From contig VCMS01000226.1 in NCBI GenBank assembly GCA_022539475.1, positions 44,659 to 108,658 of the forward strand: 64,000 nucleotides of DNA, given 5' to 3'. This stretch comes from Gracilaria domingensis. Lineage: Eukaryota; Rhodophyta; Florideophyceae; Gracilariales; Gracilariaceae. The translations under genes and the position numbers were made by a program. The notes below the pieces were generated by a model. The model worked only from the letters and a program-made list of their open reading frames with translations, was not told where the DNA came from and did not search any database. Below, piece after piece: positions 2,336 to 53,867 of this stretch (position 1 is the first letter of the stretch; every line of letters begins with the position of its first letter).

Positions 2336-5300
2336 GCCAACTCGTTTCAGGGCACAAGACACGGCAACACCTCGAATGGGAGGTCTGGTGAACAAACCAG
2401 CTCCGGGTACGCCAACGGGTTTAACAACATGCTTAAGGCATGCAAGGGACGATGTTCGTATGGAGGTGGATTTGATGAAGACTTACAGGGCGCTTTAGAT
2501 TTTTATGATTCTATGGCGAGAATGTTCCGTCTCTCTGACGAAGAAGAGAAGGCCGAAGCACTTCCAGGTATCCTCTGCGACGATGCACTTCAGTTCTATA
2601 TGAAAGAATACCGAGTTGGAGACTCATACTCAATAATCTTGCAGAAGCTCGTTGATAACTACATCAATCCTGAGCAACGCAACCGAACGCTCATTCTGTG
2701 GCAGTCGATGAGACTTTCTCAGGCTATGCGAGAGAATCCGGGAAAGAGTGAGCTGGAGGTGTTCAGGTCCTTTTTCCACCGGTTGGTACAACTACAGAAT
2801 CAACTGGACCCTGTCTACAGAACCGACAATTTTCTACGAGACCAGCTAATTGTATCGACAGATACTTCGCAGATAGCGCAGTCACTTCGAGAACGCGTTC
2901 CATCCTCATCGCAAGAGGCCCGCAGCCGTATTGCAACATTTCGGTCAAACGAACCCAGATCCGCCGAAGCATTTGTGGCGTCCCATCCAAATTCAAGCAC
3001 TGATAGCAACGTTTTTTACAGTCTTGGTAACAGATATGGGGGTGACGCAAGGAAATCTTTGAAGGTGCATGGGCGACGTAAGAAAGAGGACCGCCGCGGT
3101 AGAAGAATTTCGTCGAAATGGCTCTCAGGCAAGAAAGGCTGCTATATCTGCGGCGAGAATCATATAGCTCGCACGAGACACTCTCAGCAAGAGATTAGAG
3201 AAGCAGTTGAGAAGATGAAGGCTGCTAAGCCATCCGCTTATGTCACGATTGAAGATCTTTCAAACGTTGTTCGTGACCTAACTTCTGAAGACCAACCTGT
3301 CGACGCCGCCAATATCGTATACTCTAGCGACAGCGAGGATTCATCAGTTTGCCATGACTCTGAAGAAGAAGCCGCTTACATAGTGGAAGGTGAATTGTCG
3401 TCACATGAATCGGATGAAGTTCTTCTGGCCAATGCTTCCTTTCTGCATGGGATTGGGTTTCATAGAGATCGAGATGTAGCTCTGGCTGCAATGGAAGACG
3501 AATTGAAGCAAGGAGAGGGCGACCAATTTCGTGGACTCTACATCGATATCTGTGCTAATCGGTCTTCTGTCATGTCTTACTCCCAGTACAAAGCATACTG
3601 TCAACAGTTCAACGTGCCGTGCACAATCGATCGCAACAACGTCAAGAATCTCAGAGGCCTTGGCGATAACAGCAAACCCATAGGCACAGCTACGATACCG
3701 GTTCCGTTCAAGGAGCTGCACTTGGTGATTGACGTAATTTTCCAGATCGTTCGAGACAACGTTCCCAGCCGGCTTAGCATGAAGGATATGGTCGACAACG
3801 GGCTTGAAATCAGTTTACAGAAACGAGAAGTCATGTACAAACACCTGCACCAACCGCTGACATTCAAGAATTACTTTCTCATTCACAACTGGAGCAACGG
3901 GGATCTGTCGTACTCCTCGTACACTGAATCTGAATTGAGAAAATTACATAGTTTCTTTGGCCATCCAAGTGTTCAGGCATTTACAAATGTCCTCAAGAGA
4001 GCCCGTCCAAATGAAATGACCCCTGAAGTGCGAAATGTAATTGCTGATTTTACGCAAGCATGTGTTAATTGCACTGAGAACGCACGGAGACCGAGAAGAT
4101 TCAAACTAACTGTTGGCATGGATGATCATAGGTTCAATCATATTGTGGCCATTGACGTAATGTACATCAATCAGAAACCAGTGCTGCACGCCGTCGATGA
4201 GGCTACGCACTTCAATGCTGCTCTGTTTCTCCGTCGCATGACCTCCGCTGAAGTCTGGAAAGCCTTTTTGCGCTGCTGGTTGCGGCTGTATCTGGGTCCA
4301 CCTGACTTCCTACGGGTTGACCAGGGCAGTAACTTTGTCTCGAAAGAGTTCCTCGATTTGTCCGACGCGGACGGAATTACCGTCATGCCAGCTCCAATTG
4401 AGTCACCTTCCACCATGACTCACGTAGAACGATATCATGGACGCCTTCGTTCAGCATATATGAAGCTTCGGTCCTCCCTACCTCGGAGCGAAAGTGACGC
4501 AGACTGCCTTCAGATGGCTGTAAAGTCTGTGAATGATACCATTGGACCCGAAGGTTTGTGTCCGACATTACTCGTCTTCGGAGCTATACCTCGCCAAGCC
4601 CGCCAAACACCATCAGAGTCTCAGTTGCAACGGGCGAGGGCCATAAACGAAGCTATGAACGTCGTGCGAAAGGAGCAAGCTAAGCGACGCATCGCGTTTG
4701 GCCTTAAACACTACAATGGGCCCAAGGGCAAGGAACACAGCCAGCCACTGTCCAATCTGCCTGCTAGAGCCCCAGTTTATGTGTACCGTGAGAGCTCGAA
4801 GAACTGGGAAGGACCTTTCCCCTTCGTTCAAATCGAAGGTGAAACAGTAGTCGTTCAACTTCCGCACGGCCGTCGTATATTTCGATCAAGCGTCATCAGG
4901 CCCGCGACTGGATCGGTTCTGGATGGGAATGGTTCCTTACCAATCCAAGATGCTGCAGGTGTGAAGGACGACTTAAAGCTTTCGGAAGAAGAAGTGACCG
5001 CAATATTTGGTGGAGCTTTCGGCATGGAGCAGGTTTCGTCGCAATCAGCAGAAGAAGAATTTCATGAGGCAAGGGAGAGAGAACAAACTGGACTCAAGGA
5101 GCGGGGAACTTTTGATGTAGTGGAAGTAGACCAAATCCCAAGCCACACAAGAATTTACGGCTCGAGATGGGTTGATGTTGTGAAATCAATTGACTGTAAG
5201 GCTATGAAGAAGTCTCGACTGGTAGCTCAGAACTATAGAGATCGTGGCGCGTTGGATATTGCAACTAAATCTCCAACTGTGAGCCGACTGGGGCAACGAC

Positions 5301-6019
5301 TCTCTATTGCTCTCTCTGCCATGATGCCAGGACATACCGCCTATGTCAGGGACATTTCTCAGGCCTACATCCAGTCTGAATCACCGATTGAGAGACCAGT
5401 ATTTCTTCGTCCTCCTCCGGAGATGGGGTTGCCCCCTGGAAAGATGCTGCGAGTTTTGAAACCTCTTTACGGTATACCAGAGAGTGGGCTGCATTGGTTC
5501 GTCACCTACCACGCTCATCACAGAAATGAACTCGAAATGAAACCAACCTCAGCCGACCCTTGTGTTCTTTACAAACGCTCCGGTAGTGAACTAGAAGGTT
5601 TGACAATTCTACAAGTAGACGACTCTTTCGGACACGGCACGTCTGAATTTCTGAAGAATGAGGAGAAAAATTCGAAGAGATTTGAGTCAAAACCGCGACA
5701 CTGCTTGGCAGACGGGGATATGGCTACTTTCAATGGTACAAACATTCGAAGGAAATCTGGAGCAACCGTTTCTCTCGAACAAAGTCGAAAGCTACGTTCG
5801 GTTAAGCATCCCATTTCGCCTGAAGAATTTGTCAGCGTTCGGGCTCAAGTGCAATACATTGGTTGCTCCACAAGACCAGATTTATCAGCTGCAGTACAAC
5901 TTCTTGCGAGTTCTGTCAATGCCCCGGAATCTATTCACTTTCGTGATATGAAAGCGATTGTGGACCGATGCCACGAGACTGCGAGACTGCAGATTCTGGA
6001 TTTACCTACGTGTCATTAG
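2336..6019 (+). pseudogene. Copia gag-pol: capsid, zinc knuckle, integrase, reverse transcriptase
   Basis: Same frame as the preceding ORF; the first ATG after the stop is at 2429. In order: a capsid-like region; a variant zinc knuckle near 3138-3182 (CYICGENH, with the last Cys not in place); and the protease position near 3535-3560, which reads IDIC instead of the usual D-T/S-G, so it probably lacks protease activity. Next come the pre-integrase HHCC region, integrase with Asp near 4150 and 4318 and Glu near 4425 (HVERYHGRLR), and a copia-type reverse transcriptase whose catalytic block reads LQVDDSFG near 5614. The frame breaks just before RNase H, at a tandem duplication of GAGACTGC (5975-5990). 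Confidence 0.9.
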
Positions 6020-15316: not shown

Positions 15317-17605
15317 ATGGGTATCCTTGGATTTCAGAAGTGGTTTCTAGGCACGTTTCCGGAAGTTGTGAGAGTTCAGCAAGGTCCTAGATTCGGGGAA
15401 GTGTACGATCACGGTGAGTGCAATCTCAACGTCGCGATGGTTTGCGCTGCACAATTACGCTTCGTGCTGCTAACGTGTTCACTGCCTATTCATCTCTCAA
15501 ATTTGCGTCACAGTCGCGTTCGATATCAACCAGATTCTTCACCAGGTGCTGCGCCGCGCTACCAACAGACAGACTCTTGCTGCAGCTATTTTCCGCGAAC
15601 TTGATCAGATCCTCAAGAATTGCGTGCCGAGAAAGTCAATATTCTTCGCGTTTGACGGTCCTGCGCCAGTGGCGAAGCTAACCACACAACGACGACGCCG
15701 AAGAAAGAAAACCGCAGATTATGTATCTGACTACGTCGACGAGAATGGAGTACTCCGAAAACCCAAATTTGCAAAAGCCGCTATCGACTCCCTGGAGATG
15801 ACACCCGGCGTTGAAACGTTATATTTCGTGCGCGACTCAGTAGAATACTGGGCTTATTCGCGTTTGCAAAACGATCGGAAGTATCGCAGCGTTGACATCC
15901 GCATTTCTGGGGCTGACGTGCCCGGTGAGGGTGAATTGAAGCTCGTGGACTATTGCCGCACAGGCAAATTTCTCGCGACGGATTCGGTTGTTGTTGTGGG
16001 TGGAGATGCAGATATAGTTCTCCAAGGACTTACAACCATTCCCATCCGAAATTTCTTCGTCTATTTGCGTAACTTTGCTGGTTTTAAAGGGAAGAGGCAG
16101 AGTTATGTCATCAGCGTCTGGGAACTGGCCCGAACATTTGAACGGATCTTTCCAAATGAGTCCTCAAGCGTACGTCTCGACTTTGTGCTCCTCACAATTT
16201 TGAACGGTAACGGTAAGTTCAGATATAAAGTACTCTTTACCAGGGCTTTCGCTCTTGTCGTCAAAGTAACCAGAGCATACTTTCTAACTCAATGTTCTGT
16301 TTAGATTACATCCCTAAAGTTCGCGGCATATCTCTCAGAAATACATGGCGTCGTTACATGAGCTTGAAGCTGGTTTCAAAAGACGGAGATTTACCTCCGT
16401 TTCACGGTCAATCTCTTGTGGACGCAGAAAAACGAACCTTAAACTGGCCAATGTTCTACGCGTTAATGGGCAGCGTTGGAGTTCCTGTGCCTTCCATTGC
16501 GGAGGCCGAGCAAGAGAAGCGATTAGGAACAAGGATACCTCTCGGCACCCGAAAGCCGAAGTCGAAGCAAGGTTACATGAGCCTGTCGGACTCTGAAGCG
16601 GAAGAGCATATTGTATATACTGGTAATGAAGATGGAATCCCGATGGACTGTCTAGACGATAGTTCAAACTCTGAGGGCATCGAGTCCGCCGCATCAGATG
16701 GGAGCACTACAGACTCTGAAGACACCGAAGAGGAATATGCGGAGGAAGAAGATGAGGAGTACTTTGACGAAGAGCAAGAACACATTCAAACGCTGATAGC
16801 GCTTTCTGGGAACTCTACAAAGTTTTATGATACAAGCCGATGGGCAAGAGCACTGCTTTGGAATTTGCACATGTACGTAGACGGTATTTGTGGGGATTAT
16901 AACTTTCTGTATGGAAAGCCCTACGGGCCACCGATTGAGGAAATTTTGAAGTATATACGCGACCACGATGGAGACCCTTTCTTGCTGCAAGCACCAATCT
17001 CGCGTTCAAGGCCACTTTTCCCACATGAAGCTGCCATGGCGGTTCTTCCAAAGACGGCGAAGCACCTACTCCCGAATCCTTTGCAACGGATGTATGATAA
17101 TCCGAACGTGCTGAAAAAAATTTTCTCGGGTAAAGACGGAGTGGATGTAGCAAGCATGACGGCCGAGATCAGTCGCATACCAAAATCTGACTTCAGCTCA
17201 GAAGAACTGCGGAGGACGGTGTTCGGCTCTCCGATTCTTCTGCGACTACCTCGCCCTAACGACCGCGTCGAACATATGAACCCAAGAGTGAAGAAGCCAG
17301 GTCAGAGATTTGAAGACGTACGCAGCCGGCCAGCAATCTATCGCGCATCTTTCACCATGACGACCATTCCCCCCTGTTATGATTGGCCGAAGGGCTCCAT
17401 CCCGAACATGCTGGAGTTGTCATATAAGACGGTTAGAGGCTCAAAGCTAAAGGCGAGGAAAAAAGTCCCTGCTGAAAGCAATGGAAGTGCAAGAAAGGCT
17501 AGCAGTAAGCCGCAGCGAAGGACTCATCGACGCACCAAGAACGTTCGAACGCGAATAGCGTCCTCGGATCGGTCACACGACAGCCTCAAGAAAGCTCAAT
17601 GCTGA
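15317..17605 (+). CDS. XRN-family 5'-3' exoribonuclease, short form (three exons)
   Basis: Joining 15317-15413, 15514-16212 and 16305-17605 gives one frame of 698 codons. XRN enzymes degrade 5'-monophosphate RNA processively in mRNA turnover (Xrn1) or in the nucleus (Xrn2/Rat1). All seven acidic metal ligands of the XRN_N active site can be placed: D36, D80 (FDGPAP), E171 and E173 (VPGEGE), D197 and D199 (GGDADI) and D266 (GNDYIPK). The second and third exons meet inside the D266 codon. The middle domain follows (WARALLW...YVDGICGDYNFLYGKPYGPP near 434-465, HLLPNPLQ). An acidic stretch lies at about 350-425 and a Lys/Arg-rich tail at the end. At 698 residues it is shorter than Xrn1 or Rat1, and I cannot tell cytoplasmic from nuclear type. 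Confidence 0.9.
15414..15513 (+). other. Intron 1 of the XRN gene
   Basis: 100 bp, phase 1, donor GTGAGT and acceptor CACAG. Removing it joins the N-terminal helix to the block holding D36, as in other XRN proteins. Confidence 0.88.
16213..16304 (+). other. Intron 2 of the XRN gene
   Basis: 92 bp, phase 1, donor GTAAGT and acceptor TTTAG, with a branch-point-like CTAAC at about 16284-16288. Splicing creates the catalytic Asp codon of GNDYIPK. Confidence 0.92.
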
Positions 17606-17952: not shown

Positions 17953-19173
17953 TCAAGCCGGAGTTATTTGATCGTTAGTGTCGGCGACTGGCGCCGGTTG
18001 TTCGGTGTCACTGTCGAGCTCCACTACAGAATCTTGTTCATCGTCATCGTCAAGGTCTTCTGCGACATCGTTGGTCTTCGTGTTGAACTTCGCGCGTTTC
18101 TTTGGCGAGGATGTCCAGATAGGACCTCGGAGTACACCAACCTTGTTGCCTGGTTCAAGAGTGACGGTGCCACCGTGCTGTTCCCAGGGCTCGCCATCAA
18201 CCTGAAATGGGGTGGATTCTGACTTGAGAGTGAGGGACATCCTTGAACCCTGTGCAATGCGCACGCCATGACGACCGAACATGCGAATGGTACCAAAATG
18301 CTTGAGACTCTTGAGTCCAATGACCTCGAAAAGCTGGTCATCGACAAACATATCAGTGACGCTACGGCTATGATCGAGGTCGTCTTTCGCGTCGTGAGAC
18401 TTGACAGTGCCCCACGGCTGACTCCCCGCGCCATAGCTCGGAATGTTGAGGAAGATAATCGCTTGCAAGTAAGCAGGGATGGATATGGGCTGGTCGTCGA
18501 CCAAGAGCGTTTCGATATGGTCGGATACGTAAATCTTGCGACTCTTCGGCTGACACATGTATTTGAGGCCGACCATGGCATGCGCTTTGAAGTTGCCCAG
18601 ACGACTATTATGCTTGTCAGGATTCTGCCAGCGCATCTGATTGAAGCGCAATTCCACGTACGCATCGGCGCCCAGGCTGAGGTAGTTGCACACCAAAGGC
18701 CTCGCGCCGTGTTCAATGCCATCGTTATCGACATGGGTGTCCTTGGACTGAGTGGCAAGCCTCCACACATCCAGGCGCCTCAGCACCATCTGCTCGACCG
18801 GCGTCTCGTTAATTCTCTTGATAGCATCCTTGATAAAACGCTCGCCCGGGTACTTCTTGCCCCAGCCCAGCGCGCGCGCCATGTCATTGCCGGAGCCCAA
18901 CGGAATGACCAACAAGTGCACGTGCGACAGGTTCTGCTTCTCGACGGCGTTGGCGACCCAGGAGAAGGTGCCGTCGCCGCCGGCCACAATGCAGATGAGG
19001 TGCTGCGGCGAGTCGACGGCGCGCATGCGAAGGCCGCGCTCCGGACCCTTGTCGGCCTTGATGTCGAACACGTTCTCGTCGCCGATCTGGTTCTTGAGCA
19101 GGTCGAGCACGACGCCGCCCATGTTGCCGCCGGAGCCGGGGTTGACGAACGCAATCATGTTCATGACGTCCAT
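17953..19173 (-). CDS. Diacylglycerol kinase, catalytic domains only
   Basis: 406 residues from the ATG at 19173; the frame is open a little further upstream without another ATG. Diacylglycerol kinases phosphorylate diacylglycerol to phosphatidic acid with ATP, ending one lipid signal and starting another. The catalytic domain shows NPGSGG (11-16), GGDGT (65-69, ATP site) and PLGSGNDMAR (91-100). The accessory domain has NYLSLGADAYVELRFNQMR and a later QVDGEPW block. There are no C1, EF-hand, PH or transmembrane segments, so membrane recruitment must come from elsewhere. The C-terminus is very acidic (EDLDDDDEQD). It is transcribed divergently from the membrane kinase gene, so the two may be co-regulated. 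Confidence 0.92.
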   Translation of the reverse strand: MDVMNMIAFVNPGSGGNMGGVVLDLLKNQIGDENVFDIKADKGPERGLRMRAVDSPQHLICIVAGGDGTFSWVANAVEKQNLSHVHLLVIPLGSGNDMARALGWGKKYPGERFIKDAIKRINETPVEQMVLRRLDVWRLATQSKDTHVDNDGIEHGARPLVCNYLSLGADAYVELRFNQMRWQNPDKHNSRLGNFKAHAMVGLKYMCQPKSRKIYVSDHIETLLVDDQPISIPAYLQAIIFLNIPSYGAGSQPWGTVKSHDAKDDLDHSRSVTDMFVDDQLFEVIGLKSLKHFGTIRMFGRHGVRIAQGSRMSLTLKSESTPFQVDGEPWEQHGGTVTLEPGNKVGVLRGPIWTSSPKKRAKFNTKTNDVAEDLDDDDEQDSVVELDSDTEQPAPVADTNDQITPA

Positions 19174-20004: not shown

Positions 20005-22599
20005 ATGGCATGTGATATCTCCCCCGCTTTCACAGCGTCGCATCAACAAGTCTGGCACCAGTCCACCCCGTCTACGCCTCCTGTCAGTCCGCCCTTGCAC
20101 GCAGATCACCGTCACTCCTCCGGCGCCGTCGTGCCAGACGGCACCGTCTTGTCGCATCTCAACGTCCACAGCAGTCAGCAAGAGGAACAATTTTCCGACC
20201 ACAGCGGAACCATCAGCTTATTCGAAGCCCATCAAACGCCAAAGCCCTCCACCAAGGCCAGGACTGGTTTCAATCACCATGACTTCAAAGACTCCGACGA
20301 CGAATTCGATCGCCAATCGGCTTCTCGTTCCTCCCGCTCGCTTACTCTTCAGTCTAACTCCTCTCAACAACCGCTTCCAATCGCCGCGCGAGAAGTCGTG
20401 TACCGAATCATTGACTCTATTCCCGCTGCGTTTTTCTTCATTACGCTTTCCGCCATCGATTATGGCACCGCCTCTGCGTCTGTGTTCACCCAGTCTCACT
20501 CATATTTTCGTTTTTATCACGTGCTGGATTGGATAACCGCCGTCGCTTTTTTCATCGATGTCAATGCTCGTCTGTACAGTTACGGTTTTTGGTTTTATGT
20601 CCACGGCTTTATTCGATCTTTTGAGTACCTGCTCAGCGTCATCAACTTTGCGTTCGTCATAGCGTATGTGTTAACTGGTGCTCACTGGTTACTTATAACC
20701 AGGTACATCCGAGTTTTGCGTCTTCTAACAACTTCTCTACGTCTTCGTGAACGGCACCTCAAATGGCGTACCAGACTTGAACTGGAAAGTCTCGCTCAGG
20801 TTCTCGAAAGTGAACGGAGCGAACATAGCAAGCTCATCAAGTGGCGTATAGATTCATCCGCAATTGCCATTGGAGAACAGGCTGGACATGGCGGCTTCGG
20901 TACTGTATACTCCGGCCTCTTCAGAGGAACCCTTGTTGCTGTCAAGCAAATCTGCCCCTTGGAACGACACACCACTGTGGACTGCATCGACGATGAAGCC
21001 ATTACTTTGGTAAACCTCAGGCATCCCAATGTCGTTCTTTTTATGGGCTTTGTTAACGAACCATCAAAGCTGTGGATTGTCACCGAGTACTGCTCGCGTG
21101 GGTCCGTCAGAGACCGTCTCGACGAAGGTGATGCCGCGCTTACAGAGGGACGAATTCTTAAGTTAGCGCTCGGAGCCGCACGCGGATTGGCTTATCTCCA
21201 TGGGCAACAGCCACCAGTTTTGCATCTTGATTTGAAGACGTCCAATATTCTCATTTCCTCTGGTTGGGATGCCAAATTGGGCGACTTTGGGCTCAGCAGA
21301 AGTATCGACAATATCGAGAACAATTGGTTTTACGGAACTATGCAATACGCTGCGCCTGAAATTCTAGAAGCAAATAAGTTCACCACTGCTGCTGACGTGT
21401 ACTCATTTGGAATCTGCTTGTGGGAAATGGCTACGAAGGAAATTCCATATGAGCACATGGATCCGCCAGCAGTACTTTGGGGAGTTGTCAAGTCCAACTT
21501 GAGACCACCGCTTAATAAGTTGGTTTGCAGTACTAAACTGTCGGTCACAACGGGAGCCAGCGCTACGAGGAAATCTGTCTCGCCTGTCGCTCGAGACCTT
21601 CGTACACCATGCTCACCACCCTCACCAGCGTTTGCAAAGCGTGGAAGCTATGCAACAAGCACCATTACCCCGAATACCACTCCCGTAATTCGGCCCCTAA
21701 AATCTTGCGAAGGAGTTGCCGCATCAGGTGTACATAACAGTCTTGCACACACCGTACTGCCAATGAATGTGCAAGAAACCCTGATTACTAATACGGCAAA
21801 CGCGATGGCCAATCGAGCAGTTCCTGCAATGGCACCCATCGTGCCTCCAGTGCGTGTGAAGCAAATGATCCGGGATTTGGAGCGAAAGGAAAACAAGGAC
21901 GTGATGTTCAGCTCAGGCACGTTCCCTGAAATTAGCGAAGAACAAGATTCTGCGGTGAGGAAAGGGTCGACACGTCGAAGAGTCCAAAGGGGGGCCAGAG
22001 GGGAACAGAACACGTCAGGTTTGAATAGCTTGACAACAAAGGTGACTGCAACCATTCAAATGTTTGATGATAGGCCCCCCATTATCAGACGCAAAGAGGA
22101 CGAGGGTTCTGTGGACGCTCTATTAGAAACTTGCGGAAGTGTCGGCGATGCAAACAGTGTCATTGGGTCTCCTCGTTTCCAGTCAATGAGACGCCAAAAC
22201 ATCATTCCTAAGAGTATTGGCAAGGCCATCAACATGACGTCAAGGAAAGTCAATCAAAACACGACGGCGGAAGACAGTTCTACCGCAGACACGGACGAAG
22301 GAGAAATTGATCCGTTTATGAGACGGCTGGCAAACTTTTCTAGGAGAACAGATGATGCAAACAAGTACAAAGTAGACCAAGCTAATGTTCGAGATGAGAA
22401 CGATAACAACGTAGTAATGGGCACCGAGGGGTGTGCAGCAGGGGCAGCTAATTGCGGGCGAAAAGTAGCCAAAGTTCCGCAGGAATACATTGATCTGATT
22501 CAAAAGTGCTGGTCACCCAATGCTGAGGATCGGCCTACCGCAAGCGAGCTCGTGTGGCAGCTGGTGATTATGATGGATTGTCAGATGCGAGAAAAGTAA
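20005..22599 (+). CDS. Membrane protein kinase: voltage-sensor-like four-helix domain plus TKL/Raf-like kinase
   Basis: 864 residues from the ATG at 20005. A Ser/Pro-rich cytosolic N-terminus (1-128) precedes four hydrophobic helices: about 131-153, 171-197 (with F182/F183, D185 and R189, like S2 of voltage sensors), 203-223, and 226-250 with R233, R236, R239, R246, R248 and R250 (S4-like spacing). A charged, coiled-coil-like stretch (255-280) leads to a kinase domain. The kinase has a Gly loop 294-299, VAVK K314, E331, HLDLKTSN 407-414, DFG 427-429, APE 450-452 and DVYSFGICLWEM. The closest kinase type is TKL (Raf/MAP3K-like). About 320 mostly low-complexity residues (504-823) separate the body of the kinase from its last segment (EYIDLIQKCWSPNAEDRP, from 827). 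I infer a plasma-membrane or organelle-membrane kinase that may respond to voltage. HRD reads HLD, so it is a non-RD kinase. Confidence 0.9.
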   Translation: MACDISPAFTASHQQVWHQSTPSTPPVSPPLHADHRHSSGAVVPDGTVLSHLNVHSSQQEEQFSDHSGTISLFEAHQTPKPSTKARTGFNHHDFKDSDDEFDRQSASRSSRSLTLQSNSSQQPLPIAAREVVYRIIDSIPAAFFFITLSAIDYGTASASVFTQSHSYFRFYHVLDWITAVAFFIDVNARLYSYGFWFYVHGFIRSFEYLLSVINFAFVIAYVLTGAHWLLITRYIRVLRLLTTSLRLRERHLKWRTRLELESLAQVLESERSEHSKLIKWRIDSSAIAIGEQAGHGGFGTVYSGLFRGTLVAVKQICPLERHTTVDCIDDEAITLVNLRHPNVVLFMGFVNEPSKLWIVTEYCSRGSVRDRLDEGDAALTEGRILKLALGAARGLAYLHGQQPPVLHLDLKTSNILISSGWDAKLGDFGLSRSIDNIENNWFYGTMQYAAPEILEANKFTTAADVYSFGICLWEMATKEIPYEHMDPPAVLWGVVKSNLRPPLNKLVCSTKLSVTTGASATRKSVSPVARDLRTPCSPPSPAFAKRGSYATSTITPNTTPVIRPLKSCEGVAASGVHNSLAHTVLPMNVQETLITNTANAMANRAVPAMAPIVPPVRVKQMIRDLERKENKDVMFSSGTFPEISEEQDSAVRKGSTRRRVQRGARGEQNTSGLNSLTTKVTATIQMFDDRPPIIRRKEDEGSVDALLETCGSVGDANSVIGSPRFQSMRRQNIIPKSIGKAINMTSRKVNQNTTAEDSSTADTDEGEIDPFMRRLANFSRRTDDANKYKVDQANVRDENDNNVVMGTEGCAAGAANCGRKVAKVPQEYIDLIQKCWSPNAEDRPTASELVWQLVIMMDCQMREK

Positions 22600-22986: not shown

Positions 22987-23208
22987 TTATTTGGAGTGAT
23001 GGTTCTTCTTGTGCCGGCTCCTTGAGCTGCGGTGGCGGAATACTTGATTGCATTCGGAACATGGGAACGTGTCCTTGGACTTGGTTTGAGAGCGCGAGCT
23101 ACCGACGTTTGCCGAGGAGCTGCTGCTGCTTTCCGACTTTGGGTCGTAAGACTTGTCCATGACGGTTTTCCAGTAATCGGAGCGTTGTGAGTCGTATGGG
23201 GTAGACAT
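22987..23208 (-). CDS. Small single C2H2 zinc-finger protein
   Basis: 73 residues from the ATG at 23208; the frame is also open upstream but only with Pro/Thr/His repeats typical of translated CT-rich leader. Residues 1-45 are Ser-rich and likely disordered. Residues 48-72 form one classical finger, FPCSECNQVF with C50 and C53, then H66 and H70 (or H71), embedded in a Lys/Arg-rich end (RHRSSRSRHKKNHH). One finger plus a basic patch suggests nucleic-acid binding; the target is unknown. A TATA-like box about 195 bp upstream of the ATG supports a real gene. Confidence 0.7.
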   Translation of the reverse strand: MSTPYDSQRSDYWKTVMDKSYDPKSESSSSSSANVGSSRSQTKSKDTFPCSECNQVFRHRSSRSRHKKNHHSK

Positions 23209-23400
23209 GTTGGTGGACCGAGGGGTGGTGCGGTGTGTGGTGTGTGGTGTGTGGCGTGTGGTGGAGGGTAGTTTAGTGGGTGGGTGTGGTTGTCGGGGAA
23301 GGTTGGGGGGGAAGAAGGTGGGGGGTGGGGGCAAAGGTGAGGTGAGAGCGATGCGGGATGAGAAAGGGGTTGGGGCAGCGGTGGAGAAGTCGATCGGGTG

Positions 23401-34613: not shown

Positions 34614-36548
34614 ATGGCGCCGAGCCAAGAAGATATAAGTGCAGCGCTCCCCGGTCCTCCGGTATGTTCTTCTCCTTCTCCCGTCAACGACGTGCTTCCT
34701 GCTCCTGCAGTAGCAGCACCTCCTCAGAGTACCGAACTCTCTCTCGCTCCTGCGATCAACTTTCCTCCGACACCGGAACTAGACCTCACTATGAGTGGTG
34801 TTCCACCGAATCAGCCTCCGAACCAACCACCGTTCCCCCAAGGGGGCCTCACCGGATTCCGCTCCGTTCCGCTCCCTCAACAGGGCTCCAACCCGTCCGC
34901 GGGGCAATCGAACACTGTCGCAGGATCCTCCGCGCAGCCTGCCGCTCTCGCGGGCCCCGTCCTCGGGTTCCATCCAGGTGTGGTCTGGCCGTCTTTCAAC
35001 TTTCTTGTAGGGCTCAACCCGGCGAACCGGCGACATGCGAGGCGCCTCCGGCTCGCTCCGTGGTTCCACTCAACTGCGGTGTTCAATGAAAGCCTCATCA
35101 CTGAGTATGCCGACGGACGCAACACCCTTCCGGGGGACCTCCCGGCAATGGTGACCACTTCGTGGGATTGGCGCACGGGCATCGCGATTCCTGTCCATCA
35201 GGTAGCGCGGGAAAATCGGCAATCCCGGGAAGAAGCCCATGCCGACTTTGTCATGGTGGCTTACAAACGGCAAGGCCGGGCGCCGTTCGAGTTTCCTATC
35301 CCGCCAGGGATGGACTTCGATGTGGCGTATTACCGCACCCGCGGGGAAATCAATTACTGCGACCGCCTAGCGGCGTTGGAAACCTTCGCCTGGCGGGGAA
35401 TGCCCGTTGCACGGCAGGAAGCCATATGCTGGACAAGACCGATTCTTCGGGCTGAGTTTCGATATCTCCCCCGCCGCTCGCGGTCTAACTTCCTTCAGAA
35501 CTTCATCCACCATGAGAGGCGGTCTCGATCCCAATTTGGGTACTTCGCTCCATATCAGAACGTGGAGATCCGCCATATCGCGGCTGCGCACCGACAGGGT
35601 CGGTATGTACCTCTGCCAGAGTGGTGGAGTTACCTCGAGGCATGCCGGGGGTGCTACATCGAGTTGCCCCCGGTGTCCACCTACTTAGGGTCATACCTAC
35701 TCACAGATCCCAGGACTGGGTTGTGGTCGGTTGTCGTCACCGAGTGGGCTGTCCGCACCGCGGCGTTTGTCCTCGCTGAGGCATATGACCAGTATCGACT
35801 GTGGTTCATCCCTCCCCGCGTGCGGGCGGCCATCCGAAATTTGGACTTGGAAGTCCCCCTCGGGGGTCGTGCCAACAACGACGAGGTGTTGAGCCTTCTC
35901 TATTATATCGATAGTATCAACTGGACCGAAGTGCCTCTTTCTCAGAGTAGTCGCGGTGATTCCCCGAACACGGGTGGATACGGCCCAGGTCTGGGAAGAA
36001 ATACCGCTCTTGCGGGCGATTATGTCTTCTTCGACCCGTGGGATTATCGGGAGATTACCGCTGAGGAAGCGGGTGAGCTCCGTTCTGCTCCCCGGCGAGT
36101 GCCGGCCGATCACCCAACTGGGTTTGTGAACTCGGATGAGTATTACCGAGAGTACCTCGGGGGAGATCCAATGGTGGATAATCAGCCCGAGGACACGGGA
36201 GGCGACGATATCGAGATGATCGAAGAGATCGACGCAACCCCTGCGGGGGAGGGCGCCGGCTCTGCTCCGGTTGTCGGCTCCGCCTCGGCGGCTGACTTCA
36301 TCGCTCCCACTCCGGTTCCCATTCCGGTACCCATTCCGGCTCAGCCGGCTCTTCCCGCTGTTGCGGCTGCTGCAGCTCATCCCCCGCCGGCGGGTGTGAA
36401 AGAAGGTGCGATTATCGCTCGCTTCCTCCGCGGCGCGGGTTTAAGTGCTAGTGCGGCCTCTGGCGACGTCACCGCTATGGCGGATGCCTTGGCTCAACGC
36501 CTTGGCGGTATGCCTCCTCAGAATGAGGGCGATGGCGACGGCCAGTAA
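34614..36548 (+). CDS. Antisense ORF of the chromovirus, 644 codons, unknown function
   Basis: An uninterrupted ORF with an ATG at 34614, opposite in direction to gag-pol and tail-to-tail with it. Residues 1-125 are Pro/Ser-rich. Residues 130-510 are a compact-looking, Trp/Tyr/Arg-rich domain with motifs SWDW, RPILRAEFR, RYVPLPEWW, GCYIELPP, GLWSVVVTEWAVRTAAFVLAEAYDQYRLWFIPP and FFDPWDYRE. The end is acidic, then Ala/Pro-rich with repeated PVPIPVPIP. The related ORF at 50383-51888 shares these motifs in the same order although the two differ at many positions, which argues for selection on the protein. I know no family for it. Additional ORFs, some antisense, are known from plant Ty3 and copia elements, so a structural, envelope-like or regulatory role is possible but unproven. 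Confidence 0.78.
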   Translation: MAPSQEDISAALPGPPVCSSPSPVNDVLPAPAVAAPPQSTELSLAPAINFPPTPELDLTMSGVPPNQPPNQPPFPQGGLTGFRSVPLPQQGSNPSAGQSNTVAGSSAQPAALAGPVLGFHPGVVWPSFNFLVGLNPANRRHARRLRLAPWFHSTAVFNESLITEYADGRNTLPGDLPAMVTTSWDWRTGIAIPVHQVARENRQSREEAHADFVMVAYKRQGRAPFEFPIPPGMDFDVAYYRTRGEINYCDRLAALETFAWRGMPVARQEAICWTRPILRAEFRYLPRRSRSNFLQNFIHHERRSRSQFGYFAPYQNVEIRHIAAAHRQGRYVPLPEWWSYLEACRGCYIELPPVSTYLGSYLLTDPRTGLWSVVVTEWAVRTAAFVLAEAYDQYRLWFIPPRVRAAIRNLDLEVPLGGRANNDEVLSLLYYIDSINWTEVPLSQSSRGDSPNTGGYGPGLGRNTALAGDYVFFDPWDYREITAEEAGELRSAPRRVPADHPTGFVNSDEYYREYLGGDPMVDNQPEDTGGDDIEMIEEIDATPAGEGAGSAPVVGSASAADFIAPTPVPIPVPIPAQPALPAVAAAAAHPPPAGVKEGAIIARFLRGAGLSASAASGDVTAMADALAQRLGGMPPQNEGDGDGQ

Positions 36549-36939: not shown

Positions 36940-39593
36940 TTATCCCACTTGGGCATCGTCCAGCGTCGCTGGTGTGGCTGTCCCCGCGGAGCGGTGGTAC
37001 TGTACGACCTTCGAGCGTGGCAGGTGCTCGATAGGTTCGTATGTATCCCACTCTGGGTCGTAGCCGTACCAACGGACGCGGTATAACAAGATGCCCTCCT
37101 GGTCCCAGGTATGCCCGACAATTCGGTCGACAATGTACTCCTGAATGTACACCTGCCGGCCTTGCCGTGTTATTGTTACTTCATCGGTCGACAACCCTTG
37201 CGGGGGAACGGTTCCCGTGACGGGGGTAACAGCGCGCGCCTGGCTTTGCGTCGCCAGTTCCCTCCGAAGGGAGGTGCTTTCGATGTCGCTGCGTACCGCC
37301 ACTCGGCGTGGGTCCTTCCGCTTCGGCGGCGTCGGCGTAGCTGTGTGCTCGCCTTGTCCGTTTGCGTCGGAGAGTCCCACCTCGGGTGGCTTCACAACCG
37401 TGCGTGCACGTGACTGTAGCGACGGTTGGCTGTCAAGCTCCCTCGGGAGAACCGCCTCCCTGTTGCAGGTGTCCTCCAACGGCTGCGCCGTTGGCCCTTT
37501 TCTTTCTTTGCTCAAGTTCCCGTTCTGAACGGTTACTTCCGGGTTACCGGGGTTATCGACACCGCCGGCGGCTTGCGATCTCGTGATCTCCGCGCGCGCC
37601 TGCGCTTGCGCCGATATTTTACGCCCAATATTTGGTGCCGTACCGTCCATGACGTGAACTCTTCCCGGAGTGTCCGGCATTCCCACGGCTGTACCGCCGG
37701 GTTCTACCGAGTTGCTCGGGACTTCTTTTTCCTCAGCTCGTGCCTGCTCCGCAGGATTTTCCAGGATTCCTGGTCGTTCTGCGTCGCGTCGCGCGGCGGG
37801 CCGCGATGTCGCTGCGCTTTCCCTAGTGGGGCTTCGTTCCGACGGCGTCGGCGTGATGCCGGCGACATCTTTCGACTTCGTTCGACCCAGCGCGGCTGGT
37901 TGGCCACGAGGTTCTGTTGACTTAACCGAATCCGCTTCTGCGTGAGCGTCCTTACCCGGCGACGGTGTAGACTTCCCGGCAACGGGGCTGTGTGTGCGGC
38001 GTGCGAGCGTGCGTTGCGGACGCGATGCCCGCGCACTGGCCGGAACATCCGGAGAGCTCCGTATGGTCCGTGCTTCACGGTTGTCCTCACGACGCGACGT
38101 CGGCTTATGACTCTCAGCAGAGCTGATAACCTCCTCCCCCTCCTTAGATGGAGCGGCGTGGGGAGTAACAGAATGTCCCGCATCGCGGGTAGGTGAACCC
38201 AGCGATGGGACAGAAACGGGGGTGCCCTGGTGGCGATCATTGTCCGACACAGTCGGCGGCACCGACTCTATCGGGAGGTCTGTAAGGCCTCGGTGGGGGT
38301 GGGGCAGGACGGACGGTCTTGTCACCACATTTGTTTCCGGTGGTACCGGGGTTGTTGACTTCGTAGACACGGGCTCTGTATCAGACGGGGTAACCTCAGA
38401 CGAGGGAGGAGGGGCCATTACCACGCGGTCGCGGGAGATCCACTCATGCGCGTCAGCGATCTCGACTACAACAGTGTCCGGTGCAACCGAGATTACTTTG
38501 TACGGTCCATCCGCCACAGGCGAGAGCTTATGACGTTTGCCCTTTTCAGGGTTGTAGTGTCCCTTCCGTACGAAGACATGGTTTCCCACCGTAAGGGGTT
38601 CAGGGGTCCTTCCTCGCAAGCGAGCATCAAAATCACGCTTGTGCGCGGCTTGGGCTTTCGCCATTGACTTCCGGGCAGCCGGTACTAACTTCGTTAGCGA
38701 GGCTTTCCATTGTTGGCGATAATCACCCAAAGATGGGAAACTGCCCAAGGTAGCTTGTGATTCTAACGCCAATGGCGGGGGTGTCCTTGACAAAACCAGT
38801 TCGAATGGGGAAACACCAGTAGTCCTGTGTACCTGCGTGTTATACGCAAAGGTTAACGCGTCGGTGTATAAGTCCCATGTTTTTGGGTGGTCAGCAACGT
38901 AGGAGCGGAGAGATGCCAACATCGTACGGTTATACCGTTCAACTTGCCCGTTACATTGGGGATGGTAAGTGGTCGTGAAGAGGTTCTTCACGTCCATGAT
39001 GCGGCAGACATCCTGGAAGAACCGGGATGCGAATTGCTTTCCGTTATCGGATAATAACTCCACAGGAGGACCGTACACGAAGATCCAGTGCGTGGCGAAT
39101 GCCTGCGCGACCGTGAACGCGGTGATCCTCTTTAGAGGAACTGTCCGAACCAGTTTCGAGAACCGATCGGTGATAACGAGAAGAAATTTGTTACCTCTCC
39201 GAGTGGTAAGCAATGGTCCGAGAATATCGATTGCCACAAATTCAAGCGGCACCCTGGCAGGGAATAGTTTCACTTTCTTAGAATTCTTTCGCAGCTTCAC
39301 GCGGTTTTTCGCGCAATCGGCGCAGAAGCGTACCGTAGCGTAACAATCCACCGCCATGGCGGGCCAGTAGAAATCTCTCCTAAAGTGAGGTACAATTTCC
39401 GTCCACCTGCGTGGCCACCTAACTTTGCGTAATGCGAAAGGTGTAGGATCCTCGTCTGTAACGAGTGTGGTACCACGACTTGTGGGTGTGACTCGACTGT
39501 CCTTATGAGATAGCCGATGTCATTAACCTCGAATGGGAGGGTGTCGCCTCCGTTTAGTCGGGCACGGACTTTTAATGAAGAACGGGTCTCCAT
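36940..39593 (-). pseudogene. Chromovirus integrase with long linker and C-terminal chromodomain
   Basis: The block 39593-39297 holds the start of the zinc-binding region (HLSHYAKLGGHAGG); after a frame change near 39380, an 805-codon frame starting at 39357 continues with CADC (C12, C15), the core D44, D104 and E140 (CNGQVERYNRTM; 35 residues between the last two) and a GPY/F module (DGPYKVISV, about 285). A Pro/Ser/Thr-rich linker of roughly 400 residues follows, then a chromodomain at the end (YIVDRIVGHTW, YRVRWYGYDPEWDTYEPIEHL). Chromodomains direct integration toward particular chromatin. The catalytic acids are intact; the frame change probably disables this copy. Confidence 0.93.
38133..38155 (-). 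promoter_or_regulatory. Internal polypurine tract 1 of the chromovirus
   Basis: The minus (sense) strand carries ATCTAAGGAGGGGGAGGAG within the integrase linker. The CTAAGGAGGGGG core equals that of the 3' polypurine tract, so this may be a second plus-strand initiation site. Confidence 0.5.
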
Positions 39594-41151
39594 GCTGTTC
39601 TCGGATCATTTCTTCCGGTGATACCGGGACAAAATTCCCCGGTAGGGGCTTTATAGCCTCGGTTTTGCCTGCAACAAGCAGTTCGTCGAAGTCAGCGTCC
39701 ATATCGTCCCAGTCATCTGGCCAGTCGTCTAGCTGCCACTCCGGGAGTTCCGGCTCATCTTCGCCAACGACGAAGCAAGGAATATCATCGTCCTCGACGG
39801 CCAGAGTTTCCCCATTTGTGGGTAAGCGCGACAACGCGTCCGCCTGGGTGTTCAGGGTCCCCTTTTTGTACACGACGTCGAAGTCGAATTCCGCTAGGCG
39901 GAGCCTCCACCGCATAATGCGGCCTGATGGATCAGAGATATTCATCAACCACCTCAACGAGGAATGATCCGTGTACACGGTAAAGTGCACACCTAGCAGG
40001 TAGGAACGGTGGGTGGATAATGCCCATACGACTGCAAGGCACTCCTTCTCCGAAACGGAGTAGTTCCGTTCATGAACGTTGAGCGAACGTGACCAGTACC
40101 CTATGGGTTTTCGTTCTCCTTCGGGAGTGGTTTGGAACAGCGCGCAGCCTACTTGGTAGTCGCTCGAGTCTGTGTCCACGGAGAACGGCAATCCCGGTTT
40201 GGGTAACGATAGTATCGGTGCTGACGTAACAGCCTCCTTTAAGAAGTTGAACGCTTCCGCTTGTGCGGGCGTGAAGGGGTCCAGTTTTGGTGGCTGGCCC
40301 TTCCGCAAGAGAGCGTTAAGGGGAGCCGCTATGTCCGAAATGTTCGGCACGAACCGTCTGTAGACGTTGACCAGCCCTAAGAAGGAGCGTAATTCCGTTT
40401 GAGTCCGCGGTTCTTTCGCCTTAGCGAGTGACTTGACGCGAGCTTCCTCGATCGTCAGCCGTCCTGGACGGATTATGTGCCCAAGATACTTGACGGTGTC
40501 GGTGAAGAATTCACACTTCCTCAACTTGAGGGTGATTTCTGCATCACGCAGAGTGGTCATCACGTCCCTGACATGGGTGAGATGATCGTCCAGATTACTG
40601 GAAAACACGATGATATCGTCAAGGTAGACGAGACAGGTCCGCCACTTGAAGCGGCTCAACAGAACGTCGATGGCACGCTGGAACGTAGCGGGCGCGTTGG
40701 TTAAGCCGAAAGGCATCCGCTTGAAGCGGTAGGAGCCCGAGTGGCACACGAACTCAGTCTTATCGCGGTCTTCCTCCCTGACGGGGACTTGCCAATATCC
40801 CCAATTGGCATCCAATGCCGTGAACACGGTAGCGTCACCGAGCGAATCGATGCACTCGTCCATACGAGGGATTGGGTAAGCGTCTCTTACCGTCACGGCG
40901 TTAAATCGGCGATAGTCGACACAGAACCTCCAGGTTCCGTCGGCCTTGAGAGCCAGTACCACTGAGGATGCCCACGGCGATTGCGCGTGCTCGATGACAC
41001 CTGCGCGGAGCATCTTGTCCACTTGGAACTGTTCTTCCTCCCGAGCTTTCGGTCCTGCCCTGTAAGGGGGTTGTGAAACCGGACGCGTGTTCGGTAACAC
41101 ATCGATACGGTGTTCCGTTGCATTGATCTCTCCAAGAGAGCCATCCCACAT
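39523..41151 (-). pseudogene. Chromovirus reverse transcriptase and RNase H
   Basis: A 542-codon frame on the minus strand. Reverse transcriptase: [15 protein letters not shown] with D114, [14 protein letters not shown] and YLDDIIVF with D178/D179. RNase H: VDTDSSDYQVG, the Glu helix NYSVSEKECLAVVWAL and TDHSSLRWLM, ending with ADALSRLP. All catalytic residues I can check are present. The frame is broken at both sides from protease (near 41150) and integrase (near 39570), so expression as one polyprotein would need shifts. Confidence 0.95.
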
Positions 41152-45687: not shown

Positions 45688-46583
45688 ATAATTGGACACT
45701 GTTCGGGTGAGACGCTNTGCTGGCCACAACTTCATTGTTGAGTCGTTACTACCGCCGCAGTCCGTTGTCGAGTCGCCATGGACCGTCATGGACGTGGCAG
45801 ATGCTAACATACCCGTTTACAAACGGCTGGAATGGTTTTCACTGCTTGTCAGGATTGGTAACTGCATCAAGCAGGTAGGATTCATCGTCTGCAAGACGTT
45901 CGCTGTCCCCCCATTCTAGGTGTGACTTCTGCGACAGATATGTCGAGCCCATCCGAACCGCGTGCGCGTGCCAGTGGAATGGAAGATGGGTTCGGATGTC
46001 CGATGTTCGTTCGCTCATTACGCGAGCAATGAGCTAAGCTGGTACCACTACCGCTCCTCTACAGGAATCCTCACCTCCGAAAAGAAGTCGCCGAAGCTCC
46101 GCGAGCGGTGCAATTTCTATTCCGCCAGAAGCCCGGTTTGGGTTGATGTTATGCCCGCACCGCGGTTTGCGGGTTGTCAACCATTGAAACTCGTTATACG
46201 AGAAGTAATCAGGTCGCGTTGGCGAAGCGGAGTTGTTCAAATAACAGCGAACACTCTTTCGTTCTGGTAGCCAACTTTGGCAGAACCCCAAGTATGCTGG
46301 GGAAAGACCAAGTAATTGGTACTGTCTTACGCACCACGGCGCTTATCCCTATCAGGTGACTGCCGCCGAGATGCTCGGGATTGCTGAGGAACGCACTGGT
46401 GTGCTTCACCCTAAGGAGGGGGAGGGAGATTCGTCGCACTCATCTCCGTCGGACCCGTCTCAGACGGTTCAACAAACGAATGACTCGGAAGTTAGGACCG
46501 TTCCTACGAGTTATGACAAGATTAACCCTATCAAGGAGTTAGAAGAATTGAATCTCGGTCATGTACCGGTTTTCAGACCATGA
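45688..46583 (+). pseudogene. Protease region of the plus-strand chromovirus fragment
   Basis: HNFIVESLL, DVADAN and GFIVCKTFAVP correspond to GPNFIVESLL, DVADAN and DFIVCRSLAAP of the full element, but the catalytic motif and the following frame are disturbed by indels. The last block (46356-46583: MTAAEMLG, HPKEGEG) overlaps the start of the reverse-transcriptase region and holds CCTAAGGAGGGGGAGG. Confidence 0.75.
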
Positions 46584-47557
46584 GAAGTTGCGCAACATGT
46601 TGCGAGAGTTTACACCAATTTGGAATGGTTCCCTCGGAGAGGTTTCAACTACGGAACACCGGACTGACCTCCTGCCGGAGACCAAGCCGATTGCTCAGCA
46701 CCCTTACAGGGCAGGCCGAAAGCACGGGAAGAGGAAGAGTTTCAGATCAACAAAATGCTCAGCGCTGGCGTTATAGAACCGGCTCAGTCGCCGTGGGAAT
46801 CTTCAGTTGTACTGGCTGCGAAATCCGATGGGTCCTGGCGCTTTTGTATCGACTATCGTCGCTTGAACGATGTCACGTCAAAGACGTGTACCCTATACCG
46901 CGTATGGACGAGTATATCGACTCGCTTGGCGATGCTACTGTGTTCTCCACCTTGGATGCAAACTGGGGTTACTGGCAAGTACCAGTTAGACCGGAAGACC
47001 GTGACAAGACCGCGTTTACCTCTCATTCAGGATTATACCGCTTTAAGCGTATGCCGTTCGGATTAACGAACGCCCCGGCTACGTTTCAGCGTGCTCCGGA
47101 GATTTTGTTAGCTCGCTTCAAATGGCGGAGTTGCTTGGTATACCTCGATGACATCATCGTGTTTTCCAACAGTTTGGACGATCACCGCGAACATGTTCGG
47201 GAGATAATGACCGCTTTGCGGGATGCAGGAATCACACTCAAGTTGAGGAAGTGTGAGTTTTTCACTGACTCAGTGAAGTATCTGGGCCATGTCATACGTC
47301 CAGGACGGTTACTGATCGAGGAAGCTCGCGTGAAGTCCCTCAAAGAGGCGAAGCACCCTACTACACAGACAGAGCTACGCTCGTTTCTAGGGCTATGCAA
47401 CGTTTATAGACGCTTCATTTCTCGCTTCGCGAAGATCGCGGGACCGCTCAACGAACTCCTGAAGAAGGGACAACCGCCCAAATTGGGACCACTTACCCCA
47501 CGCAAGTGGAGGCTTTCAACTCTCTTAAAGAGGCTGTTACTACGGCACCCGTGTTAG
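46580..47557 (+). pseudogene. Reverse transcriptase of the plus-strand chromovirus fragment
   Basis: From about 46870 one frame gives [47 protein letters not shown] and YLDDIIVFSNSLDDH, closely parallel to the full element. The first third is distributed over two other frames. A shift near 47505 leads to RNase H. Confidence 0.88.
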
Positions 47558-49472
47558 CGTTACCGAAGAACGGGTTGCCGTACACCGTGGATACGGATTC
47601 GAGCGATTACCAGATTGGCTGTGCTCTCTTTCAGACTACACCAGAAGGGGAACACAAACCAATTGGCTATTGGTCTCGTACACTCAACGTGCACGAGCGC
47701 AATTACTCGGTATCCGAGAAGGAGTGTCTCGCCATGGTATGGGCTTTGCAGACTCTACGACCAAATCTTATGGGTTTGCACTTTACCGTCAATACGGATC
47801 ACTCCGCATTGCGTTGGTTAATGTCAGTCACGGAGCCTTCCGGACGCCTAATGCGTTGGCGTCTTCGGCTTGCCGAGTTTGACTACGAGGTCACCTATAG
47901 GAAGGGTTGTTTGAACGCGCAAGCGGATGCTCTTTCACGTCTAGGAACGGAAGGTGAAGCTTTACCCGTCGATGACGAGGATGAAGATATCCCCTTTTTC
48001 CTCATGGAGGAGGATGATGAAGACTACGACATCGTGTCGGACGACATCTGTGATGATTTGCTCGTCGCAGTTGGTGAAGACCCGGAACCCGGTACATTCG
48101 TCCCCATTACTCCAGAAGAGCTGGTGCGGGAACAGCAATCTGACCCGTTCTGTACGAGGATACGCGCCCAAATTAATGGTGGTGCTAATATCCCGTTCGG
48201 GGTTAACACACAAGGTTACCTCGTCAGAGTGGTTCGTTCTACCCCACAGATTGTGGTTCCTCACTCCTTACAAACAAGGGTATTGCATCTCTCGCATCAA
48301 TCGCGGATGGCTTCCCATCCGGGTGCTAAGCGGTTATACACGACACTGCGTCGGAATTTCTACTGGCCCGCGTTAGCGTTGGACTGCTACCCCACCGTGA
48401 AGGCGTGTGCACATTGTGCTCGCGAGCGAGTTAAACATCGTCGCCATGCGAAGAAACTAACACTTTTCCCTGCAAGGGCGCCGTTGGAGTTTATTGCCAT
48501 CGATATACTCGGTGAGTTCTTGCGTACTTCCCGAGGAAATCGGTTCTTACTCGTTATTACGGATAGATTCAGTAAGCTAGTCCGGACAGTTCCGTTGAAG
48601 TCGATTACAGCACGCAGTGTTGCGGAGGCATTCGTTCGCCATTGGGTTATGGTCTACGGTTCCCCGGTCAATCTCCTTTCGGATAATGGTCCGCAGTTTA
48701 CTGCGCGTTTCTTCCAAGATGTCTGTCGGGTACTCGACGTGAAGAATCTCTTCACGACGACGTATCATCCCCAATGCAATGGGCAAGTCGAACGGTTTAA
48801 CCGGACAATGCTCTCCGCGTTGCGGGCTTATACTGTTGAACACCCGAAAACTTGGGATCTCTACACGGATACCGCGACGTATGCGTATAATATGCAGGTT
48901 CACAGAGTAACTGGTTTAGCGCCCTTTGAGCTCGTGCTCTCACGGACACCACCGCCAGTTGCGATTGAACCATCAGCAAAGCTGGATACGTCACCGTCAA
49001 TACGGGATCACTGCTTGCAGTGGAAGCAGTGGTTATCCGCAATGGTACCTGTCGCCAGGTCGTCAATGGCGAAAGCACAACACGCTTGCAAGCGGAACTT
49101 TGATGCTCGGGTACGGAGACCACTACCGCCACTGAAAATGGGAAACCTCGCCTTTGTCAGGAAGAAGTACTACAACCCTGAAAAGGAGAGTCGCCACAAG
49201 CTTTCACCCATCGCTGATGGTCCATACCGCGTTATTAGCGTGAATACGGACACAGTCGTACTGGAAGTTGGCGACGCTCATGAGCGTTTCTCCCGCGATC
49301 GCGTTGTGCAGGGCCCAACCGTGCACACGAAAGTACTTTCGGATTCACAGCAGGAAGCTGGACAGACACAGAACCGAGAATTCTCGTCGCAGAACACTAC
49401 ACCTAATGTGGGGCTTCGCAACCCTGCAAGGGGTCTCGCAGAGGTACCGATTACATCGTCGCAAGCCGAGAT
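47506..49472 (+). pseudogene. RNase H and integrase of the plus-strand chromovirus fragment
   Basis: A long intact frame: VDTDSSDYQIG, NYSVSEKECLAMVWAL and TDHSALRWLM of RNase H; the HHCC zinc site ending CAHCARERV; the integrase core with AIDILGEFL, LLSDNGPQF and CNGQVERFN; and the GPY/F module DGPYRVISV. The frame runs on to 49554, but the codons after 49472 are LTR sequence, so the protein is truncated before the linker and chromodomain seen in the full element. Confidence 0.9.
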
Positions 49473-51888: not shown

Positions 51889-52299
51889 TTTTGGGGCTAT
51901 TTGGGGCGCGCGAGGGGGTAGCAGAGGCTGGCACTCAAAAAATTAAGAAATTTTGGAATATTAAATTCCATTTCGCGCAGTTTAGTTCTTGGGTCCCCTA
52001 GTTTTTATAGAGGTTCTACTTCGCTGCACCACCCCATTCACTCTTTTCCGCGACCCTCTCTCAAAACTGCATTCGTGCTAGTTTGCGTTTCCATTTTTTT
52101 TTGTTGCAATGCCAATCGCAACTCATCCCACCTCAATCATCCAATCAGTTCTTCCCAGTCCACACCACCCCCGCTATTTACCCATTTCTCGCCCATCACG
52201 CGTTCGCATCCTCTCTCTCCGTCTCCGCAAACGTCATTTTGTAGAAGTCAGGTGGACAACCCTCCCCCTTCTCGTATACCCGCCTCGCCCAAAACGGCT
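51889..52299. other. Spacer, 3' side of the hypothetical minus-strand gene
   Basis: AT-rich start (51940-51970), then CT-rich sequence. No gene recognised; it contains the breakpoint of the truncated chromovirus at its left. Confidence 0.4.
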
Positions 52300-53826: not shown

Positions 53827-53867
53827 AAGGTAACAATGTAATAAACAATAAATTTATGCTACTATCT

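Follow-up and report, generated by a model that had tools for sequence, protein, structure and literature searches.

Does the red alga Gracilaria domingensis encode a protein kinase that is built onto a voltage sensor, and might membrane potential control its activity? The question is raised by one gene in a 64,000-nucleotide stretch of contig VCMS01000226.1 (assembly GCA_022539475.1, forward strand, positions 44,659 to 108,658), which we call the window and within which all coordinates are given. The gene encodes, in one frame, an N-terminal region followed by a membrane domain of four helices (approximately residues 126 to 250), a short basic linker, and a kinase of the TKL/Raf type. A preliminary description of this DNA, made from its letters, had likened the membrane domain to a voltage sensor; that observation is confirmed here, with corrections. 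In our judgement the S1-S4-type domain quite probably belongs to the voltage-sensor family, and we favour, at somewhat better than an even chance, the reading that the protein is a membrane kinase with a pore-less voltage sensor (S1-S4), on the plan of the voltage-sensing phosphatases, the enzyme being a TKL/Raf-type kinase. Control of the kinase by voltage, judged from the sequence, would have an even chance or slightly more of being correct.

The second helix of the membrane domain contains the segment FFIDVNAR (residues 182 to 189), in which F182, D185, and R189 follow the pattern F-xx-D-xxx-R; an Asp and an Arg had been described as placed here as in S2 of voltage sensors, and this is the case. 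The motif [FYW]xx[DE]xxx[RK] is given, in the available text of PMC4878010, as the criterion of Kang and Baker for finding voltage sensors. In S3 an acid that had previously been passed over, E207, lies at the charge-transfer position: it falls on the S3 Asp in four alignments, those with PDB entries 3wkv and 9c49 and those made by hmmsearch and hhalign against profiles of bacterial voltage-sensing domains (VSDs). The 3wkv and 9c49 alignments also place D185 on the S2 acid and R189 on the S2 base, and the former sets RYIRVLR opposite RLWRVAR in S4. R233, R236, and R239 fall at every third position of S4, as does R248 lower in the helix; R246 and R250, earlier counted in the series, are out of register, and positions 242 and 245 are Thr and Leu. 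The spacing from the S2 base to the first S4 arginine is 44 residues, compared with 45 in TPTE2, 49 in 3wkv, and 36 to 37 in NavMs-type sensors (counted by eye). When the segments were shuffled 300,000 times, with the composition of each preserved, the S2 motif arose in 2.1%, the S2 and S4 motifs together in 0.32%, and both motifs with an acid inside an S3 slot of 8 residues in 0.09%. The S3-S4 loop contains no Lys or Arg and residues 245 to 260 contain six, a distribution that fits a cytosolic C-terminal side. The charged, coiled-coil-like stretch reported after S4 was recovered as a linker that is basic and then mixed in charge, and that is helical in a weak model described below.

A search of residues 117 to 286 against Pfam gave a sole match, Ion_trans (E = 0.014, 15.0 bits), over profile positions 7 to 109 of 241, which correspond to S1-S4. 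Such a match had been anticipated, and Ion_trans was the only nonkinase family found, although it stayed below the cut-off; the profile includes the pore, a part without counterpart in the kinase-fused domain. The absence of a pore, already stated in the preliminary description, was borne out, as the match stops at position 109 and S4 leads into the kinase. The top two of 177,635 distinct PDB sequences searched with phmmer were 3wkv (E = 0.41), an entry named "Ion channel" that we take to be a proton-channel chimera, and 9c49 (TPTE2, E = 0.78). Voltage-sensor proteins made up seven of the nine matches at E ≤ 10, four of them named "Ion transport protein" and presumably representing one bacterial sodium channel and its variants. 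No other membrane family ranked higher in the Pfam, PDB, or Foldseek searches of the real domain. E values alone prove nothing here, because control sequences reach similar values (see below).

Given the weakness of these subthreshold E values, we built a VSD profile out of segments of bacterial loci, keeping 22 of 120 once near-duplicates had been removed, and tested it with shuffles. The real domain scored 13.5 bits and the reversed sequence 1.4. Two of 5,000 helix-preserving shuffles reached 13.5 bits (16.8 and 13.6), and none of 5,000 full shuffles did so; 4,858 and 4,644 of the 5,000 were given a profile score, and those left unscored were counted as below the real score. Profile-profile comparison with hhalign gave a score of 31.8 over 95 columns (probability, 56%), which none of 1,000 shuffles reached, the best of them scoring 29.8 over 30 columns. 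Shuffles, as controls, differ from real unrelated membrane proteins. In a MAFFT alignment with ten bacterial sensors, chosen from 23 loci kept of 80, F182, D175, R233, R236, and R239 stand in invariant columns. The similarity to voltage sensors is subthreshold yet above shuffles, and it lends moderate, not decisive, support to homology.

Two structure models were computed with AlphaFold, both with a pTM of 0.38. The model that was given ten bacterial voltage-sensor rows has helices at residues 126 to 161, 165 to 193, 196 to 200, 202 to 224, and 227 to 293; this is the order S1, S2, short helix, S3, and S4, with S4 continuing into the linker, at low confidence. Four helices in the proposed order are present in this model, at a pTM that limits its weight. 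Foldseek, run with this model, returned 15 PDB matches at E ≤ 10, of which 14 were S1-S4 cation channels (TPC1, KCNQ, HCN1, and NavAb among them). Model and fold search may be taken as agreement, not as proof. The single-sequence model was rejected for the fold search because it consists largely of one very long helix, with the same low pTM.

The assignment of the enzyme to the Raf/TKL kinases, made from sequence motifs and matches, is certain, as the preliminary description had it. Pfam finds PK_Tyr_Ser-Thr and Pkinase at E values of about 1e-48, split into two stretches, and the closest solved kinase structure is plant CTR1 (E = 5e-41), followed by TNNI3K, MLT, and B-Raf, among the best 60 of 1,822 PDB matches. 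The motifs GHGGFGTV (294), VAVK (311, with the catalytic Lys 314), HLDLKTSN (407), DFG (427), APE (450), and DVYSFG (464) are present, and the CTR1 alignment places Glu E331 at the helix-C position (counted by hand). The catalytic loop reads HLD instead of HRD, with Arg replaced by Leu. By general rules of kinase control, an HLD loop suggests regulation through position or dimerisation instead of through phosphorylation of the activation loop. An in-frame insertion of about 318 residues separates the DVYSFG region from the final CW...RP segment.

How does this protein compare with known systems? The voltage-sensing phosphatases (Ci-VSP and TPTE/TPTE2) likewise have a pore-less S1-S4, a short linker, a cytosolic enzyme, and FxxDxxxR in S2. 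They carry a PTEN-like phosphatase where this protein carries a TKL protein kinase, and the TPTE2 alignment reached only E = 0.78; membership in that group is excluded, since no PTEN-like phosphatase domain is present and Pfam finds only the kinase and Ion_trans. Hv1/VSOP proton channels also have an S1-S4 without a pore, three in-register arginines in S4 (followed here by Thr where 3wkv has Asn), and a helical C-terminal extension, which here comes from the weak model. They differ in that the present protein carries an enzyme and lacks the tryptophan of RxWRxxR; RYIRVLR has Ile at that position, and membership among the Hv1 proton channels is likewise excluded. TRPM6 and TRPM7 also combine an S1-S4-type membrane domain with a kinase in one protein, but they have a pore as well, and their alpha-kinase is unrelated in sequence. 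The VSD-cyclases PPTG_13136 and PPTG_13761 of Phytophthora and the protozoan K-channel/adenylyl cyclases resemble our protein in joining a voltage-sensor-like domain to a signalling enzyme, which is a cyclase there and a kinase here. RxWRxxR, together with an S1 filter, is said in the available text of one review to serve for identifying Hv sequences, and the S4 of Ci-VSP is described there as lacking the tryptophan (PMC10377628). Oomycete transmembrane kinases join one to several helices to a TKL kinase; in Phytophthora infestans such kinases, all of them TKL and predicted to have from one to nine helices, are common according to the available text of PMC3019232, so that a TKL kinase with membrane helices is nothing unusual in itself. 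That text makes no mention of a voltage sensor, and the word "voltage" occurs zero times in its main text (PMC3019232).

Several of our results weigh against a voltage sensor, and some of them would suit a TKL kinase joined to a membrane domain of four (or three) helices that is unrelated to voltage sensors and resembles them by chance, an explanation that we consider unlikely and to which the frequency of transmembrane TKL kinases in P. infestans lends some plausibility (PMC3019232, available text). Every database similarity of the membrane domain lies below the accepted cut-off: Ion_trans drops from 15.0 bits for residues 117 to 286 to 10.9 bits (E = 0.27) for the whole protein, where 25 bits are required, and the best Foldseek E value was 0.49, with the others worse. 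The control set comprised 20 sequences, 19 shuffles and the reversed sequence, of which Pfam took ten (nine shuffles and the reversed sequence) and the PDB search four shuffles; two of the ten matched unrelated families at E values of 0.021 and 0.036, and two of the four aligned over short lengths with unrelated proteins (best E values, 0.42 and 0.32), the other two matching nothing. Mean hydropathy over 19 residues exceeds 1.0 in three stretches (135 to 153, 175 to 182, and 204 to 228, with gaps), so that three of the four hydrophobic helices first described are clear peaks and the Arg-bearing S4, which does not pass by itself, is read from its arginine pattern and the weak model. The S4 of voltage sensors commonly falls short in hydropathy. 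The arginines in register are only three in a row, and the MAFFT alignment shifts the S3 register by 7 residues, putting N214, not E207, at the S3 acid. Single-sequence AlphaFold predicts a 128-residue helix after a first helix, and the alignment-based model leans to a voltage-sensor fold because its alignment was made of voltage sensors. Searches of viral contigs and prokaryote genomes, and of plasmids and phages by tblastn, yielded no homologue of the whole fusion or of the membrane domain taken separately; these are non-eukaryotic collections in which absence means little, and in the contig collections a single-protein query reaches close relatives only. The gene itself reads as eukaryotic, to judge from the apparent intron nearby, the type of kinase, and the retrotransposons in the window. 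The charges are accordingly without support from conservation. That the kinase responds to voltage is, moreover, something that we infer. On the other side, Ion_trans matched none of the ten Pfam controls, and no voltage-sensor protein was among the PDB matches listed for the four shuffles (for one shuffle, the best 60 of 281). The real profile scores were reached by 2 of 5,000 and 0 of 1,000 shuffles, and the landmarks of S2, S3, and S4 line up in alignments made separately, all of which argues against chance likeness.

A true S1-S4 of the voltage-sensor superfamily might instead serve chiefly to conduct protons or cations, or else to anchor the protein or bind a ligand without sensing voltage; pH, ligand, or dimerisation, and not voltage, would then control the kinase. 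S1-S4 serves as an anchor or ligand site in some TRP-type proteins. This alternative, which we regard as fairly unlikely, gains from the acids D137 and D152 in S1, either of which might stand at the place of the Hv Asp/Glu filter (Asp112), from the passage of S4 into a helical linker in the weak model, and from the three consecutive in-register S4 arginines, like those of Hv1 in the available text of PMC10651576. Against it, the Hv S4 tryptophan described in PMC10377628 (available text) is missing from RYIRVLR, and F182, D185, and E207 together speak for a functional sensor. It would be very improbable, in our view, that the gene model itself is at fault, with the helices and kinase on different transcripts or the helices spliced out. 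The organism seems to have introns, judging from an apparent one (about 90 bases, GT...AG) in the nearby XRN-like gene, and codon usage is indifferent at the sensor-kinase junction: in a test that took other window genes as its training set and compared the three plus-strand frames in 22 blocks from 20005 on, the true frame was best in 15 blocks, tied in 2, and not best in 5, and it was favoured in neither junction block (residues 241 to 320). This bias is too weak for use in either direction. A single open frame of 864 codons nevertheless crosses the junction and requires no intron, from an ATG at 20005 to a TAA at 22597-22599; the frame and residue numbers first reported stand, and the start given as 20395 is corrected, that position being codon 131, near the start of S1. 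Of 20,000 first-order Markov samples, 14 kept an open frame over 20005-20862 (286 codons); over 21511-22479 (323 codons, the kinase insertion), none of 20,000 did. No Met occurs between residues 1 and 347, and residue 347 lies beyond the Gly-loop (294) and the VAVK lysine (314), so an in-frame downstream ATG cannot yield a complete kinase without the helices. A scan of 20005-20895 for the usual splice patterns, with unusual sites outside its reach, gave a single donor-like site (GTATG, 20664), and nothing resembling an acceptor began past position 20345.

If the protein is a voltage-gated kinase, for which the chances seem to us evenly balanced, movement of S4 would switch the Raf-type kinase and so connect membrane potential to a phosphorylation cascade in one molecule. 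Both termini would be cytosolic. At rest, the S4 arginines would lie low, against D185 and E207 and around F182; depolarisation would drive R233 to R239 outward past F182. Because S4 would continue as a helix into the basic linker, its movement would pull or turn the linker, displace the kinase with respect to the membrane or a partner kinase, and change its activity, whether up or down. Raf-type kinases are switched by dimer geometry. The features on which this proposal draws are collected in Table 1; the N-terminal region listed there is probably disordered and cytosolic, to judge from its composition.

Table 1. Features of the kinase gene and of the protein that it encodes.
Feature	Residues	Position	Strand	Basis
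Whole coding frame, 864 aa		20005..22599	+	ATG to TAA
N-terminal S/T/Q/P/H-rich region	1-125	20005..20379	+	Sequence
S1 helix, acids D137 and D152	126-161	20380..20487	+	Hydropathy; low-confidence alignment-based model
S2 helix, F182/D185/R189	165-193	20497..20583	+	Motif; PDB alignments; model
S3 helix, E207 at charge-transfer acid position	202-224	20608..20676	+	Alignments; model
S4 helix, R233/R236/R239, then T242, L245, R248	227-250	20683..20754	+	Pattern; PDB alignments; model
Linker, basic (six Lys/Arg in 245-257) then mixed-charge	245-285	20737..20859	+	Sequence; helical in weak model
TKL/Raf-type kinase, main part	288-508	20866..21528	+	Pfam, PDB match, motifs
In-frame A/S/T/R-rich insertion in kinase C-lobe (limits approximate)	509-826	21529..22482	+	Sequence
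Last kinase C-lobe segment, CW...DRPTASEL	827-864	22483..22596	+	Sequence; second Pfam kinase stretch

The kinase gene has identifiable neighbours. Upstream, 15546-17605 holds an XRN-type 5'-3' exonuclease gene (XRN_N, 5e-32; XRN_M, 0.004, subthreshold), whose two frames are joined by the apparent intron mentioned above, and 17953-19173 (minus strand) a diacylglycerol-kinase-type gene (DAGK_cat, DAGK_acc), which diverges from the kinase gene and is separated from it by some 0.8 kb of GC-rich sequence. Just downstream, a small open reading frame (ORF) at 22987-23334 (minus strand) contains one C2H2 zinc finger, subthreshold. Mobile elements are represented by a Copia-type retrotransposon region at 2429-6019 (plus strand; RVT_2, rve) and Gypsy-type regions at 36940-41151 (minus strand) and 46580-49554 (plus strand; both RVT_1, RNase H, rve), the type names being our own assignment from Pfam domains; one of these three regions includes a chromodomain. 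Two long ORFs, 34614-36548 and 50383-51888, are 43% identical over 473 columns, have no Pfam match, and each have a Gypsy-type element no more than about 1 kb away; they are perhaps an accessory gene of such elements. Strong strand asymmetry (GC skew, -0.47) marks 52001-54000, over a minus-strand ORF at 52300-53325 (341 codons) with no Pfam match. A HAD-type hydrolase (Hydrolase_3, E = 2e-13) is encoded at 55976-56983 (plus strand) and a Plavaka-type DNA transposase (E = 1e-18) at 61333-62784 (minus strand). Scans of the window for tRNAs and for Rfam families each returned zero.

Known voltage sensors are attached to pores, to phosphatases, to cyclases, or to a transporter (sNHE), or stand by themselves (Hv1). 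VSD fusions to phosphatases, an exchanger, and cyclases are in print, in the available text of PMC10651576 and PMC12223298, and the Fig. 1 legend of a 2023 review claims to cover the topology of every VSD protein reported up to that time (PMC10651576, available text). The word "kinase" occurs zero times in the main text, as available, of the VSD reviews PMC10651576, PMC13095418, and PMC10377628. The term "voltage-sensing kinase" was absent from the literature searched, mostly without subscription papers and without bioRxiv, and none of the titles or abstract openings found there presented a fusion of a voltage sensor with a kinase. What would be new is the kinase as effector; fusions of voltage sensors with phosphatases and with cyclases were already known. 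If the reading of the Gracilaria protein as a voltage-sensing kinase is true, one type of sensor can also drive protein phosphorylation. Such a protein would offer a new chassis for voltage-controlled signalling tools, and it would connect electrical signals with MAP-kinase-type cascades in organisms that lack nerves.

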